64,000 bases of DNA from Phyllobacterium chamaecytisi (lineage in GTDB: Bacteria; Pseudomonadota; Alphaproteobacteria; Rhizobiales; Rhizobiaceae): the NCBI RefSeq assembly GCF_020164455.1, contig NZ_JAIQWW010000004.1:186001-250000 (forward strand), written 5' to 3'. The stretch's first letter is position 1. Each line of letters begins with the position of its first letter. Made by a program: the position numbers and the translations under genes. The notes below the pieces were generated by a model. It did not search any database and had not been told where the DNA came from. It saw only the letters and a program-made list of their open reading frames with translations. Shown here in pieces: positions 1,839-53,856 of the stretch.

Positions 1839-2110
1839 AGAGCGAGATAAGGTTATATTGATGTGTTCTGCCGGAGGGAATTCGTGGACAAGGTCAAGGG
1901 ATTTGGCGAGGCCGATGTTTTTGCATCGGACGATGCCGAAGCCCGAAGGATTTGGCCCGAATTCACCCGGCCCTTCGGGTTTCCGGCTGGCGCACACCCA
2001 CTTTGTCAGGCGGCTTCGTCCGATGAACCACATCGGCCTCGCCACCTTCCGCGTGGATTGTCTCGCCATCCGCAAAACAGAACGCCATCAATATAGCCTT
2101 GTCTCGCTCT
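1839..2110. repeat. Dispersed ~272-bp palindromic element, copy 1
   Basis: Terminal inverted repeats lie at 1839-1863 and 2086-2110 (23 of 25 positions pair; both exceptions are T-G on the plus strand). After a one-base slip the pairing continues through TTCTG. A second inner stem, GGCGAGGCCGATGT at 1905-1918, pairs perfectly with 2030-2043. The centre holds the hairpin-prone segment around CCCGAAGG and CCCTTCGGG. A second copy lies at 53458-53732 with a closely similar body but different outer arm sequences. No transposase and no clear target-site duplication were seen. The open frames inside it on both strands look spurious. Confidence 0.85.
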
Positions 2111-20765: not shown

Positions 20766-21386
20766 TCACCCCTCCATCATCTCGCGCAGCACCATGTGCT
20801 TGAAATGCTCGACCAGCGCGTCACCCTCCTCGCGCTCAACCGAGATCGCAAGGCGCATCGTTGCCTCGCCGAGCTGCATGATCAGAAAGCTCGACGCCTC
20901 CAGTTCGTCGCGGTCCGCCTTGGGGTCGACCCGCGCCCGCGCCGCCGCCAGCACCGCGCCATTGATGCGGCTGTCGGCAAGACTGATATCGCGCAGCGCC
21001 TTGTCAGCCTGCGTTCCCGACCAGATGTCGCGCATCACCGGCTCGGCGAGGAACATCGCGTAGTAGACATCGATCAATTCGCCGAACGCCAGCCGCAAAC
21101 CTTGCTTGCCCTGCACATCCTGCAGGCCTTCCGAGATACATTGCTGGCCAAGCACATTGTAGCGCTCCGCCAGCGTGCGGATGATCGCACCCTTGTCGGG
21201 AAAGTACTGGTAGAGTGAACCGATCGAAATCCCCGCCATCTCCGCCACGTCGCTCATGCGCATGGCATCGCTGCCGCTCTTCTCGATGAGCGTCGAGGCG
21301 CAACTCAGTATCCGCTCCACCCGCTCGCGGCTGCGTTTTTGTGTCGGCTCGCGCCGTACGCCCTCGATTGGCCCAATCTCATTCAT
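20766..21386 (-). CDS. TetR/AcrR-family transcriptional regulator
   Basis: 206 residues. The N-terminal DNA-binding domain has the TetR helix-turn-helix MSDVAEMAGISIGSLYQYFPDKGAII (about residues 43-68); the rest is a helical ligand/dimerisation domain. It is divergent from an NmrA-like oxidoreductase operon 237 bp away. An inverted repeat CCTCATATT...AATATGAGG sits 8 nt before its start codon, with a third half-site further on, so autoregulation and control of the neighbouring operon are likely. The ligand is unknown. Confidence 0.9.
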   Translation of the reverse strand: MNEIGPIEGVRREPTQKRSRERVERILSCASTLIEKSGSDAMRMSDVAEMAGISIGSLYQYFPDKGAIIRTLAERYNVLGQQCISEGLQDVQGKQGLRLAFGELIDVYYAMFLAEPVMRDIWSGTQADKALRDISLADSRINGAVLAAARARVDPKADRDELEASSFLIMQLGEATMRLAISVEREEGDALVEHFKHMVLREMMEG

Positions 21387-21393
21387 GAGTATT

Positions 21394-21450
21394 CCTCATA
21401 TTTTGCTTGACTCCTATAATATGAGGATTTATCACATTTGCAAATATGAG
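21394..21450. promoter_or_regulatory. Candidate TetR operator
   Basis: CCTCATATT at 21394-21402 and AATATGAGG at 21418-21426 form a perfect 9-bp inverted repeat with a 15-bp spacer; a further AATATGAG half-site lies at 21443-21450. The array lies directly upstream of the tetR start and overlaps a possible minus-strand promoter (TTGCAA with TATTAT about 16 bp later). Assignment to this regulator is inferred from position. Confidence 0.6.
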
Positions 21451-21485
21451 ACTTGCTCATGTTTAAGAGCCCGTTTAGAAAGTCG

Positions 21486-38236: not shown

Positions 38237-38391
38237 GATGGCAATGCTGCTGTGCGTGGTTCGACAAGCTCACCATGAGGGAAGTGGGTTGATTACACGG
38301 AGTGAAATTCTGCAACCGCGGCGATTGTGGTTGCAACTCTCTACCTTCCTCATGGTGAGCTTGTCGAACCACGCACAGCAGCATTGCCATC
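38237..38391. repeat. Perfect 44-bp inverted repeat
   Basis: The 44 bases at 38237-38280 (starting GATGGCAATGCTGCTGTGCG) are the exact reverse complement of 38348-38391. The 67-bp centre carries another hairpin, TGCAACC/GGTTGCA. The inner portion of the arm, GTTCGACAAGCTCACCATGA, is of a type dispersed in many proteobacterial genomes. The element lies between the aminotransferase start (38111) and the lipoprotein stop (38454); nothing else is seen in this stretch. Confidence 0.9.
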
Positions 38392-49047: not shown

Positions 49048-50229
49048 ATGGAGGCCTATCCCTTGTCACGCGCGTTGTTTACAGCCTTAAAATTTGGTTT
49101 TACCGCCGCTACCTTGTCGGCATCGGCAGCCCTCGCCCAGGAAGCCGCGGCTCCACCTCCTCCCCCGACTGTGACGGTTGCAAAGCCGGTCGTGCGCGAC
49201 GTGGTTGACAGCGATGAGTTTATCGGACGATTTGAAGCCGTCGATCAGGTTGCCGTCCGTTCGCGCATCGATGGATATCTCGATACAGTTCACTTCACCG
49301 ATGGCGCATTGGTAAAGAAAGGCGATCCGCTCTTCACGATTGACCAGCGGCCCTATATCACTGCCCTGGCGCAGGCACAATCATCGCTCGAAGTTGCCAA
49401 GACAACGCTGACTTACGCTGAAGCACAGTACAAGCGGACGGAATCGCTCACCGGCAGCGGCACGCTGTCCGTATCGACGCTCGATGACCAGCGGCGCGCT
49501 TTCCTTGCGGGGCAAGCCAGTGTGGCCGGCGCTCAGGCGGCTGTCGATAACGCTCAGCTCAATCTTGTATATACGCAGATCACTGCGCCGCAGGACGGCC
49601 GCATCGATCGCCGGCTGATTTCGGTCGGCAATCTGGTCAATGCCAATGACACAGTCCTGACCACGATCGTCTCGCTTGACCCGATCGATTTCTACTTCGA
49701 CGTCGATGAGCGCAACCTGCTCAACTATGCGCGGACGGCGCGCGAGCGTGGTAGCAATTTGCAGGAAGGCGGTGGCGGTCTCGACGTCACGGTCAAACTC
49801 ACAGACTCCAACGAACCGCCGGTCAAGGGCAAACTCGACTTTGCTGAAAATCGGCTCGATGATGCGACAGGCACAATGCGGGTTCGCGCTCGCTTCGCCA
49901 ATCCCAAATTCATTCTCCAGCCGGGGCTTTTCGGCCGCGTCGAAGTGGCCGCCTCGAACACCTATAAGGGAATTTTGGTCCCTGACGAAGCTGTCGGCTC
50001 GGACCAGAATGAACGCGTTGTCTTTGTCGTCGCTGAGGACGGCACTGTCACGAGCAAACCCGTTCGCCCAGGTCCCAAGCTTTATGGCTACCGCGTCATT
50101 CGCGAGGGGCTGACAGGTGATGAGACAATCGTCATCAATGGGTTGATGCGCGTTCGTCCCGGCGGCAAGGTTAAACCCGAACTCGTCCAGCTTCCGCCAG
50201 AGGCGAAGACGGCGGAGGCCAGTCAATGA
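49048..50229 (+). CDS. RND efflux periplasmic adaptor (membrane fusion protein)
   Basis: 393 residues from the ATG at 49048. The signal peptide ends SAALAQEAA. Then come a biotinyl-lipoyl-like beta domain (RSRIDGYLDTVHFTDGALVKKGDPLFTID), an alpha-helical hairpin (SLEVAKTTLTYAEAQYKRTESL), and the beta-barrel and membrane-proximal domains with YTQITAPQDGRIDRRLISVGNLV. It links the inner-membrane pump to the outer-membrane TolC-like channel. It lacks a lipobox. It overlaps the pump gene by 4 bp. Confidence 0.93.
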   Translation: MEAYPLSRALFTALKFGFTAATLSASAALAQEAAAPPPPPTVTVAKPVVRDVVDSDEFIGRFEAVDQVAVRSRIDGYLDTVHFTDGALVKKGDPLFTIDQRPYITALAQAQSSLEVAKTTLTYAEAQYKRTESLTGSGTLSVSTLDDQRRAFLAGQASVAGAQAAVDNAQLNLVYTQITAPQDGRIDRRLISVGNLVNANDTVLTTIVSLDPIDFYFDVDERNLLNYARTARERGSNLQEGGGGLDVTVKLTDSNEPPVKGKLDFAENRLDDATGTMRVRARFANPKFILQPGLFGRVEVAASNTYKGILVPDEAVGSDQNERVVFVVAEDGTVTSKPVRPGPKLYGYRVIREGLTGDETIVINGLMRVRPGGKVKPELVQLPPEAKTAEASQ

Positions 50230-53200
50230 GATTTGCGCATTTCTTCATCGATCGGCCGATCTTTGCATCTGTCCTTTCGATCGTGCTGCTGCTTGTCGGC
50301 AGCATTGCCTATACGCAGCTCCCCGTCGCCCAATATCCAGAAATCGCTCCGCCGACCATCGTGGTGCGCACGTCGTATCCGGGCGCCGATGCGGAAACCA
50401 TTGCGAATACTGTAGCCACCCCGATCGAGCAGCAGATCAACGGCGTCGAGGACATGCTTTACATGTCATCCTATTCGACAGCCGACGGCTCGATGTCGCT
50501 GACCATCACCTTCAAGCTCGGTACCGATCTCGACAAGGCACAGGTCCTTGTGCAGAACCGCGTCGCGATCGCTGTGCCTCAGCTGCCGGAAGACGTCCAG
50601 CGCAACGGCATAACCACGACGAAAAGCTCGCCTGACCTGATGATGGTCGTGCACGTGCTTTCGCCGGATAACCGCTATGACCAGCTCTACGCGTCGAACT
50701 ATGCCAACACCCGCATCCGCGATGTGCTGCTGCGGCTCGACGGCGTCGGCGACATCACCATTTTCGGTGAGCGTCAATATTCGATGCGCGTCTGGCTCGA
50801 TCCGCAGAAACTGGCCGCCTATAGCATGACGTCGGGCGATGTCGTGCAGGCATTGCGCGACCAGAATGTTCAGGTCAATGGCGGCGCCATCGGCGGACCA
50901 CCAACATCTGGCACAAACGCCTTTCAGTATACTGTCACGATGCAGGGCCGGTTCGAAGATGCAAGGCAATTTCGCTATGTGATCGTCAAGACCGGCGCAG
51001 ACGGCCGCCTGGTCCAGTTGCAGGATGTTGCCCGCATTGAACTTGGTGCGAAAGACTATGTGACCAACAGCTATCTCGATGGCAGTCCCGCCGTGGCGCT
51101 CGGTATTTTCAGCCGGCCCGGCACCAATGCGCTGGCAGCTGCGGCGACCATCAAATCCACAATGCAGGAGCTTGCCAAGGATTTCCCCCCAGGGCTCAAA
51201 TACGACATCGTCTATGATCCGACGGAATTCATCGCTGAGTCGATCAACGATGTTTACACGACGATCTTCGAAGCTGTGATTCTCGTCGCACTTGTCGTGC
51301 TTGTCTTCCTGCAATCGTGGCGTACCGCCATCATTCCTATCGTTGCCATCCCGGTCTCGTTGATCGGCACGTTCGCCATTCTTCTGGCATTCGGCTTTTC
51401 GCTGAATATGCTGACCCTGTTCGGTCTTGTTCTGGCCATCGGTATCGTCGTCGATGATGCGATTGTCGTCGTGGAAAACGTGGAACGAAACCTGGCATCT
51501 GGCATGACGCCAAAGCAGGCGTCGCATACCACCATGGATGAAGTGGGCACCGCTGTTATCGCCATCTCGCTGGTGCTGATTGCAGTGTTCGTACCAACGG
51601 CTTTCATTCCCGGCATTTCCGGCCAGTTCTACCTGCAGTTTGCCGTAACGATTTCTGCGGCAACAGCTATTTCGGCTCTCAACTCGCTGACGCTCTCGCC
51701 CGCCCTGGCAGCAATTGTCCTGCGTCCACACGATCACGCGGTTTCCAACAATCCGCTCGCGCGTTTCGGGCGAAGCCTCGCCAACGGCTTCAACAGAGGC
51801 TTCGATAGAATGGCATCGGGCTATTCCTGGATCGTAAGGCACCTTGTGGGATCAACGATCGGCCTTCTTGCCTCGCTTCTCGTGTTCGTCGGACTCCTTG
51901 GAGCCACATGGTACATGTCGAATCTGGTACCGCGCGGCTTCATTCCCCAGATGGATCAGGGCTATGCCATCGTCGTTATCCAGCTGCCGGACGGAGCCTC
52001 CCTCGCCCGCACAGATGCGGTGGTCCAAGAGGCCTCGAAGATCATCCGTGGCATCCCCGGCGTCAGAAACTCCGTCGCCTTCGCCGGCTTCAGTGGCGCG
52101 ACCTTCACGAATGCTTCGAATGCCGGCGTCGTTTTCGCGCCGTTCCAGCCGTTTGACGAGCGGATCAAGAATGGCCAGTCGGCGACTTCGATCATTGGCC
52201 AGATCTATGGAAGTCTGCAGAGCATTCAGGAAGCTTTCATCATCGCGGTGCCGCCGCCATCGATTCGCGGTGTCGGCAACGCCGGTGGTTTCAAGATGCA
52301 GCTCCTCGATCGCGACAGTTCCGACATGCGCCGCGTTCTGGGTCTGGCCCAACAGATGATGGGAGAAGCCAACCAGACACCTGGTCTGACCGGCGTCTAT
52401 ACGACGTTCTCCGCCTCGAGCCCGCAATATTTCCTTGAGATCGATCGCGACAAGGCTCGGGCATTGAACGTGCCCATTCCGAACATCTTTGAGGCGCTAT
52501 CGATCAATCTCGGCACGTCTTATGTGAACGATTTCAACGCTTACGGCCGTGTTTATCAAGTACGCGCGCAGGCCGATCAGCAATTCCGCGTGGATCGGGC
52601 GGACATTCTCGCGCTGAAGGTTCGCTCGGCGACTGGCGCGCTCGTCCCGCTGGGTACACTTGTCGAAATCAGGGATACAACCGGACCATCGCTCGTGCAG
52701 CGGTACAACATGTACGTGTCGGTTCCGCTCCAGGGCAATTCTGCTCCCGGAGTTTCTACCGGTACAGGTCTCGACAAGATGGAAGAGCTTGCGGCGAAGA
52801 CCTTGCCACCCGGCACAACCTTCAACTGGACCGAGCTTGCATTGCAAGAGAGAAGCACCGGGAATACGGCGATACTGATTTTTGGTCTTTCCGTTGTTTT
52901 CGTCTTTCTTGCGCTGGCCGCCCAATATGAAAGCTGGGTCCTGCCGCTGGCGATCATCCTGATCGTACCATTGGCCGTGCTGGCGGCGCTCATCGGCGTG
53001 CACCTGCGAGGTATGGACAACAATATCCTGACGCAGATTGGGCTCGTCGTCCTGATTGGCCTGGCGGCGAAGAACGCGATTCTCATTGTTGAATTCGCCC
53101 GACAACACCAGGAGGAAGGTGCCACGCCGGTCGAAGCTGCCATCGAGGCCAGCCGGCTGCGCCTGCGTCCGATCCTGATGACCGCCTTCGCCTTCATCTT

Positions 53201-53393
53201 CGGCGTTGTACCACTGATGATCGCACAGGGACCAGGTGCCGAAATGCGCCAGTCGCTCGGTACGGCGGTGTTTTCGGGCATGCTCGGCGTTACGTTCTTC
53301 GGCCTGTTCCTGACACCGGTGTTCTACGTCGCACTCCGATCTTTCGGCCGCAAACGTAAAGTGGTGGCGGAAGAAGCCCCCGCCGCCCACTAG
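50226..53393 (+). CDS. HAE1-family RND efflux permease
   Basis: 1055 residues, standard for AcrB/MexB-like transporters. The N-terminal FFIDRPIFASVLSIVLLLVG, TM4 proton-relay aspartates in GIVVDDAIVVVENV, and the TM10 lysine in GLAAKNAILIVEFA are present. The two periplasmic loops and 12 helices are intact. No outer-membrane TolC gene is adjacent, as in Brucella BepDE/BepFG systems that use a separate channel. The likely function is export of drugs, dyes or detergents driven by proton entry. Confidence 0.95.
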   Translation: MRFAHFFIDRPIFASVLSIVLLLVGSIAYTQLPVAQYPEIAPPTIVVRTSYPGADAETIANTVATPIEQQINGVEDMLYMSSYSTADGSMSLTITFKLGTDLDKAQVLVQNRVAIAVPQLPEDVQRNGITTTKSSPDLMMVVHVLSPDNRYDQLYASNYANTRIRDVLLRLDGVGDITIFGERQYSMRVWLDPQKLAAYSMTSGDVVQALRDQNVQVNGGAIGGPPTSGTNAFQYTVTMQGRFEDARQFRYVIVKTGADGRLVQLQDVARIELGAKDYVTNSYLDGSPAVALGIFSRPGTNALAAAATIKSTMQELAKDFPPGLKYDIVYDPTEFIAESINDVYTTIFEAVILVALVVLVFLQSWRTAIIPIVAIPVSLIGTFAILLAFGFSLNMLTLFGLVLAIGIVVDDAIVVVENVERNLASGMTPKQASHTTMDEVGTAVIAISLVLIAVFVPTAFIPGISGQFYLQFAVTISAATAISALNSLTLSPALAAIVLRPHDHAVSNNPLARFGRSLANGFNRGFDRMASGYSWIVRHLVGSTIGLLASLLVFVGLLGATWYMSNLVPRGFIPQMDQGYAIVVIQLPDGASLARTDAVVQEASKIIRGIPGVRNSVAFAGFSGATFTNASNAGVVFAPFQPFDERIKNGQSATSIIGQIYGSLQSIQEAFIIAVPPPSIRGVGNAGGFKMQLLDRDSSDMRRVLGLAQQMMGEANQTPGLTGVYTTFSASSPQYFLEIDRDKARALNVPIPNIFEALSINLGTSYVNDFNAYGRVYQVRAQADQQFRVDRADILALKVRSATGALVPLGTLVEIRDTTGPSLVQRYNMYVSVPLQGNSAPGVSTGTGLDKMEELAAKTLPPGTTFNWTELALQERSTGNTAILIFGLSVVFVFLALAAQYESWVLPLAIILIVPLAVLAALIGVHLRGMDNNILTQIGLVVLIGLAAKNAILIVEFARQHQEEGATPVEAAIEASRLRLRPILMTAFAFIFGVVPLMIAQGPGAEMRQSLGTAVFSGMLGVTFFGLFLTPVFYVALRSFGRKRKVVAEEAPAAH

Positions 53394-53424: not shown

Positions 53425-53457
53425 CGCTCAACAGCTGCTCCCAACAGCTACGCCCTC

Positions 53458-53732
53458 TAGAGCCTCGTGCGATAATATTGATGCGTTCTGCCGGAGGGAA
53501 TTCGCGGACAAGGTCAAGGGGTTTGGTGAGGCCGATGTTTATCCATCGGACGAAGCCGAAGCCCGATGGATTTGGCCCGAATTCACCCGGCCCTTCGGGT
53601 TTCCGGCGGGCGGCCAACCACTTTGTCAGGCGGCGTCGGACGATGGAAAGGCATCGGCCTCGCCACCTTCCGCGTGGATTGTCTCGCCATCCGTGAAACA
53701 GAACTGCACCAATATTGTCGCACGAGGCTCTA
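53458..53732. repeat. Dispersed ~275-bp palindromic element, copy 2
   Basis: Outer arms start TAGAGCCTCGTGCGATAATA (53458) and end in the near-complement at 53732; the two imperfect positions are T-G and A-C. The inner stem GGTGAGGCCGATG (53525-53537) pairs with 53652-53664 with one T-G. The body repeats that of 1839-2110 over most of its length, including AATTCACCCGGCCCTTCGGG. In the 11 bases after AGAGC the arms differ from copy 1 almost throughout but remain complementary to each other. Confidence 0.85.
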
Positions 53733-53856
53733 TAGTTACTGTTACGTACTTTCTTCGAAATTCGTCAACATGCATGCTGCGCTTGCACGGACAGTATTTT
53801 GGCCGCGTGGGATGATGGTCGATCGCGACCATAGAGCACTGAGGGGAATGGGATAA

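Follow-up and report, generated by a model that had tools for sequence, protein, structure and literature searches.

The window, which is the whole 64,000-nucleotide stretch of Phyllobacterium chamaecytisi DNA that was analysed, contains two copies of a ~270 bp palindromic element, located where the initial annotation had placed them (1839-2110 and 53458-53732). Copy 1 is bordered on its left by a gene that we take, from its translation read by eye, to encode a DsbA-like protein (933-1730); on its other side, the translation within the open frame 2099-2569 is presumably that of a type II 3-dehydroquinate dehydratase. Copy 2 comes after a large gene (50226-53393) whose translation we take to be an RND-type transporter. 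The open frames overlapping the two copies look, in our judgement, fortuitous. The arms of copy 1 (1839-1863 and 2086-2110) are 25 nt long and 92% complementary, and those of copy 2 (53455-53484 and 53706-53735) are 30 nt long and 90% complementary. Both copies share AGAGC tips and an inner ATATTGATG, as first described, while the 11 intervening bases differ (GAGATAAGGTT versus CTCGTGCGATA), each of these segments being matched by the partner arm of its own copy. The features are the following:

1838-1839, no strand: dinucleotide GA bordering copy 1 on the left, where most copies read TA
1839-1863, plus strand: left arm of copy 1, a terminal inverted repeat comprising the AGAGC tip, the variable 11 nt at 1844-1854 and the inner ATATTGATG
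1864-2085, plus strand: body of copy 1, including the short apex (CCCTTCGGG)
2086-2110, plus strand: right arm of copy 1, complement of the left arm, variable segment at 2095-2105
2110-2111, no strand: right flanking TA of copy 1, presumed target duplication (GA on the left side; empty site in G002 (L150), one base off)
53458-53459, no strand: left flanking TA of copy 2, presumed target duplication (length-matched empty site in G013 (L173))
53459-53484, plus strand: left arm of copy 2, variable segment at 53464-53474, limits from the family alignment
53485-53705, plus strand: body of copy 2
53706-53731, plus strand: right arm of copy 2, variable segment at 53716-53726
53731-53732, no strand: right flanking TA of copy 2, presumed target duplication

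From the outside inwards, the layout comprises TA, the AGAGC tip, the variable segment of ~11 nt, a semi-conserved stretch, GTTCTG and the body, whose left half folds back on itself in the consensus structure. Elsewhere in the window, a separate 155-nt palindrome (38237-38391) with 49-nt arms, 96% complementary, contains GGTTCGACAAGCTCACCATGAGG. Similar sequence is present in L121 (3455-4507) and again beside an arm in L049, and this resemblance suggests that the palindrome probably belongs to a different dispersed repeat family of the genus. AT-rich imperfect palindromes overlap one another in a cluster at 21377-21468.

In the genome from which the window is taken (6.36 Mb, 93 contigs), there are 41 matches, which we assign to 17 places with a body and to one palindrome that lacks it. 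The element was detected, with E values of 1e-10 or better, in 21 of 59 genomes searched: the window genome, all 19 other members of the genus searched, and one genome (G034) from a different genus of the same family; the copies drawn from this search are a subset of at most 12 scored candidates per genome. G034 harbors 16 near-full copies; their arms are of two types, and in either type the two arms of a copy match. An exact 20-mer scan of named genomes returned 55 stretches, 52 of them in Phyllobacterium and three in contigs of one 'Rhizobiales bacterium'. A plasmid of Aminobacter niigataensis carries one copy.

The copies fall into several size classes. Among 40 adjacent facing pairs of ends belonging to one arm group (group A) in 19 genomes, 26 delimit 269-274 nt, four 353-357 nt, five 163-166 nt and the remaining five 52-152 nt. 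The long form possesses an extra ~84 bp at the apex, bearing two small hairpins. This segment occurs in L118, L131, L113, L126, L141, L053, L110, L331 and on contig C35 of the window genome (L032); at the same locus it is present in some species and absent in others, and the apex is long in one orthologue and short in the other at four of 12 loci. Two derivatives of half size, 164 bp, are located at different sites of G034 (G034:C1:605075-605238 and 1041569-1041732; L252-L253 and L256-L257), and in both the matches put the sequence of one end at both ends, which suggests that fold-back derivatives are themselves able to spread. On a plasmid of Phyllobacterium zundukense, an annotated ABC transporter permease gene ends within the element's opening three bases (TAG, L226 3001-3003), and its stop codon may have been supplied by the insertion. 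The sole clear copy with two different arm types (L109 7258-7567, the same as G017:C42 and L320) is found at a contig end, having arisen either by recombination or as an artefact of assembly.

The matching of the two arms within a copy, first noticed in the window, proved to be genuine and family-wide. Both arms were readable in 71 of 76 distinct copies, five being lost at arm extraction, and measure ~26 nt; L109, with its two different arms, is one of the 71. For the 69 copies with both arms in register, L109 being left out, the variable segment averages 1.28 mismatches of 11 against its own partner, versus 6.71 of 11 against the partners of other copies; adding two more copies (one out of register, one with two arm types) gives 1.39 and 6.69 of 11. 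The initial annotation had proposed collecting copies and searching the outer stem for covariation. Arm changes were counted on 66 aligned copies, an alignment that omits the long-apex copies, L157, L083 and the copies cut by the end of a locus: 27 of 33 arm pairs covary, with both sides changed. Double-changed cells number 484, as compared to 161.6 in shuffles, a value reached by none of 500 shuffles, the excess being inflated by kinship among the copies. Standard pairs occupy 94.2% of the arm cells and drop to 30.3-43.0% when one arm is slid by 1-3 columns.

Covariation of this strength is what one would look for if the arms formed the closing stem of a functional RNA, or of a cruciform, with their pairing kept by selection. 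The folding energies point the same way, lying far below those of shuffles for plus-strand RNA (z -10.85 for copy 1 and -10.24 for copy 2). However, the one minus strand that was folded, that of copy 2, gives an equally low energy (z -10.25). The tendency of imperfect stem positions to be G-U pairs in a plus-strand RNA, noted initially for the window copies, does not extend to the family: in 59 distinct arm pairs (L109 and the out-of-register L011 omitted), 61 mismatches would be G-U in a plus-strand RNA and 63 in a minus-strand RNA, the other 37 being transversions, and the one-strand G-U constraint of a structured RNA family is therefore not observed. Including one out-of-register copy, the counts become 68 plus-strand G-U, 66 minus-strand G-U and 46 transversions; with this copy likewise included, mismatches that occur in a single arm pair are more often G-U on the plus than on the minus strand (39 versus 25), a tendency in the direction of the initial annotation that we do not regard as decisive. 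The tip is mismatched at 1.7% of its positions, the variable segment at 12.3% and the inner part at 12.9%, as compared to a mean body divergence of 11.9%; the arms, tips excepted, thus look about as decayed as the rest of the element. Searching the window with Rfam at gathering scores retrieved two tRNAs only, with no match to a described family at the copies. Finally, at orthologous loci (12 pairs, in a comparison using 113 of 123 arm pairs), 13 arm changes affect a single arm, one is concerted and one is of another kind, and selection on the fold finds no support in these changes. RNA selection as the cause of the matching arms was dropped for want of a strand bias and in view of arm decay resembling that of the body, and an RNA or cruciform under selection appears highly improbable. 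The initial annotation had offered a choice between a selected fold and arms kept alike by hairpin-templated replication or gene conversion; the first is not supported and the second is in part. The choice did not include a mobile element with the arms as its terminal inverted repeats, a reading that the empty sites support.

Copy 1 is absent from its exact place in all 19 other genomes, G004, G012, G014 and G016 having a copy elsewhere in the same gap, and copy 2 is absent in the five of these 19 genomes in which the spacer can be aligned. The comparison of empty sites among copies used 122 of 131. By length, a 2-bp duplication fits at five sites (copy 2/G013, L131/L135, L134/L185, L139/L089 and L008/L115), the TA being intact in the L131/L135 empty site; at the copy 1 site and the G012/G015 site, the fit to a TA duplication is off by one base. 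Of 70 copies, 51 are bordered by TA at both ends. In ten empty-site sequences, read over 60 nt on either side, no GAGC...GCTC palindrome is found, and at most one of eight further bases is paired. With ten empty sites devoid of an arm palindrome and a 2-bp, mostly TA, duplication, it follows that the arms arrived with the element, which inserts as a unit of body and both arms and needs no prior palindrome.

These same sites bear on the idea that the body was inserted into pre-existing palindromes of varied sequence, an outcome that the initial annotation regarded as fatal to its claim and that is rejected wherever a site can be read. Body-less palindromes with the same arms do exist (L031, L056, L062 and L349) and would suit this idea, but none of the ten empty sites, which come from copies with different arms, holds such a palindrome, and three of the four (L031, L056 and L062) are in our reading internal deletions joined at repeats of 3-5 bp. 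Insertion into standing palindromes is accordingly extremely improbable. Uncompensated arm differences, also considered damaging in the initial annotation, do occur to some extent: 161 of 1534 arm cells are mismatched.

How the arms may come to match, and remain alike, is illustrated by several copies. L015, L342 and L344 carry, as their second end, the first end in inverted orientation, and L349 is a 52-bp palindrome made of two arms only; these ends and this palindrome show that fold-back copying happens. Comparison of 42 pairs of nearest relatives (55 distinct arm pairs, leaving out L109, L095, L088, L089, L011 and L137) gave 61 concerted, 100 single-arm and 19 other changes, where ~5 concerted changes are expected by chance; in G034, three are observed and 0.09 expected. 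The fold-back copies, the arm-only palindrome and this concerted excess together support the part of the initial annotation in which the arms are kept alike by hairpin-templated copying or conversion. Concerted arm changes fit both correction in place and matching at transposition. The proportions of concerted and single changes at orthologous and non-orthologous loci compare with Fisher p values of 1 to 0.12 for up to 8 letter differences, and of 0.04 at 12.

It is possible, if on balance unlikely, that the matching results from quasipalindrome correction in place, whether by template switching at a fold-back or by gene conversion from arm to arm, without need of a transposase that recognises matched ends. 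The fold-back copies and the concerted excess are compatible with such a process, as are the concerted change at the orthologous locus L107/L140 and a second one, L119 versus L147, that was read by eye and on the right flank only. Yet single-arm changes dominate orthologous loci, the arm mismatch is as high as the body divergence, and correction alone leaves the TA insertion and the conserved AGAGC tip unexplained. It is improbable, though worth stating, that recognition by the mobilising enzyme depends on the pairing of the ends, in a folded or cruciform state, together with the AGAGC tip, and not on the sequence of the variable 11 nt. If so, the ends would be free to vary when both change together, many end types in one genome would be explained without a matching transposase for each, and a TA-targeting element would be moved in a structure-guided, sequence-tolerant manner.

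Within the family, arms and body vary separately. The body distance between minus within arm groups is 0.0009, a value reached by 683 of 2000 shuffles, whereas between minus within genomes it is 0.0272 and reached by none of 2000. Body type is independent of arm type and tied to the genome. Mutual information between body columns and the larger arm groups exceeds z 3 in three of 67 tested columns. In G034, where whole-copy identities had been read as a linkage between body and arm type, this reading was dropped: on bodies alone the link is weak, the mean distance over 15 copies being 0.036 for copies of the same arm type and 0.041 for copies of different types, with 108 of 2000 shuffles reaching this difference.

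Individual loci illustrate this decoupling. L140 and L146, both of P. myrsinacearum, possess bodies that are 98.2% identical and wholly different arms. The body of L140 differs from that of its orthologue L117 (91.9% identity) about as the flanks do (90.9%), and therefore in L146 either the body or the arms have been replaced. A second example is the locus shared by L025 (window genome) and L143 (P. trifolii), where the arms are identical, the flanks 95.9% and the body 88.7% identical, and where the differences start just inside the arms: here the body was replaced, arms and flanks being kept. L143 and L095, a copy with other arms in the same P. trifolii genome, share a gap that is found in two of 66 aligned rows and is absent from L025. 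Identical arms, a diverged body and a rare gap in common with L095 point to ectopic gene conversion of the body. Such replacement is seen directly at one of 12 orthologous loci; at the remaining loci, body identity is close to that of the flanks or exceeds it.

The search for a partner transposase covered two transposase families and a single end type each in 19 genomes and in G034. The loci scanned, 19 of 19 for PF13586 and three of seven for PF13358, revealed no autonomous element or transposase bearing ends of this kind; PF13586 occurs in nine of 19 genomes and is absent from the window genome, while PF13358 occurs in five of 19, the window genome included. Of the 136 group A end matches in the 19 genomes, 80 make up the 40 facing pairs and 56 remain unpaired when one mismatch is allowed; no adjacent facing ends lie 358-6000 nt apart. 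All 30 end matches in G034 coincide with known copies of the element. Across 199 sources, GAGC-ended inverted repeats 300-3200 nt apart with at least 15 of 20 matches gave eight distinct hits, namely six long-apex copies of the element and two others. IS630 and some IS5-group elements target TA, and for this reason they remain candidates.

Several properties identify the element as MITE-like: it is shorter than 500 bp (main class 269-274 nt) and has no transposase gene; its ~26-nt arms are within the 4-30 bp range of terminal inverted repeats; a target duplication is observed at empty sites (five by length and two more one base off); and multiple copies are dispersed at species-specific sites (17 places in the window genome). 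It is probably a non-autonomous, TA-targeting transposable element of ~270 bp with terminal inverted repeats of ~26 nt, present in Phyllobacterium and close relatives, whose ends and bodies follow separate routes. Many sequence types of end pair exist. The ends would match within a copy because the mobilising transposase needs a matched pair, and fold-back template switching, copying one end onto the other, may help this matching. Once inserted, the arms would decay like neutral DNA, and ectopic gene conversion would spread bodies among the copies of one genome, stopping at the arms, where homology ends. Matched-end transposition, fold-back copying, arm decay and body conversion combined would thus give one body with many covarying arms. 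As body and ends evolve separately, a tree of the bodies does not give the history of insertions. Covariation of base pairs commonly counts as the strongest argument for a functional RNA stem; the present element offers a natural case in which strong covariation is better explained by DNA transposition and recombination. The strand test on G-U mismatches (G-U confined to one strand) separates an RNA from a DNA cause and could be applied where repeats give rise to proposed RNA families.

Among repeats of comparable type, Correia ends are of two types that can be mixed, and RIME is an intergenic palindromic repeat of rhizobia. The present element appears undescribed in the sections consulted of the literature on palindromic, MITE, RIME and Bru-RS repeats, a coverage that took in few subscription journals. 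Its nearest described parallels, likened by description and not by sequence, are Correia/NEMIS, RUP and ERIC (PMC2229807; PMC10969869). Correia/NEMIS, from Neisseria, is a small non-coding mobile repeat with 24 bp terminal inverted repeats, TA ends and a target duplication, and its short and long forms of 107 and 155 bp differ by a 50 bp internal segment (PMC2229807). The Phyllobacterium element likewise has a short and a long form (269-274 and 353-357 nt), but it belongs to another genus and has many end types, which correspond within almost every copy and are unrelated to body type. RUP (Streptococcus pneumoniae) and ERIC (enterobacteria) are TA-ended, target-duplicating, MITE-like intergenic repeats, and IS630-Spn1 is the candidate transposase of RUP (PMC2229807); in contrast to RUP, no candidate transposase was found for the Phyllobacterium element among the families and genomes scanned. 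A pattern of many ends on one body is not stated for RUP or ERIC in the available portions of that source.

Bru-RS, RIME and CIR are, like the present element, intergenic palindromic repeats of alphaproteobacteria (rhizobia and Brucella), and two of them are set apart by their descriptions: Bru-RS measures 103-105 bp (PMC2267715), and CIR is composed of two stem-loop arms and a linker, without a terminal inverted repeat (PMC2229807). REP/REPIN sequences are also palindromic repeats spread through genomes, with REP units of 20-40 bp in GTAG- and CGTC-tagged groups (PMC3733652), whereas the Phyllobacterium element is ~270 bp long with a TAGAGC tip and a TA duplication. In template-switch (quasipalindrome) correction, one arm of an inverted repeat serves as the template for the other, and compensatory changes result (PMC8794818; PMC7202029; PMC8604942); it is a process and not an element, and it may have a role in the arms described here. 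By the features tested, the element is a TA-targeting MITE, and what sets it apart from these parallels is the many matched end types carried on one shared body.
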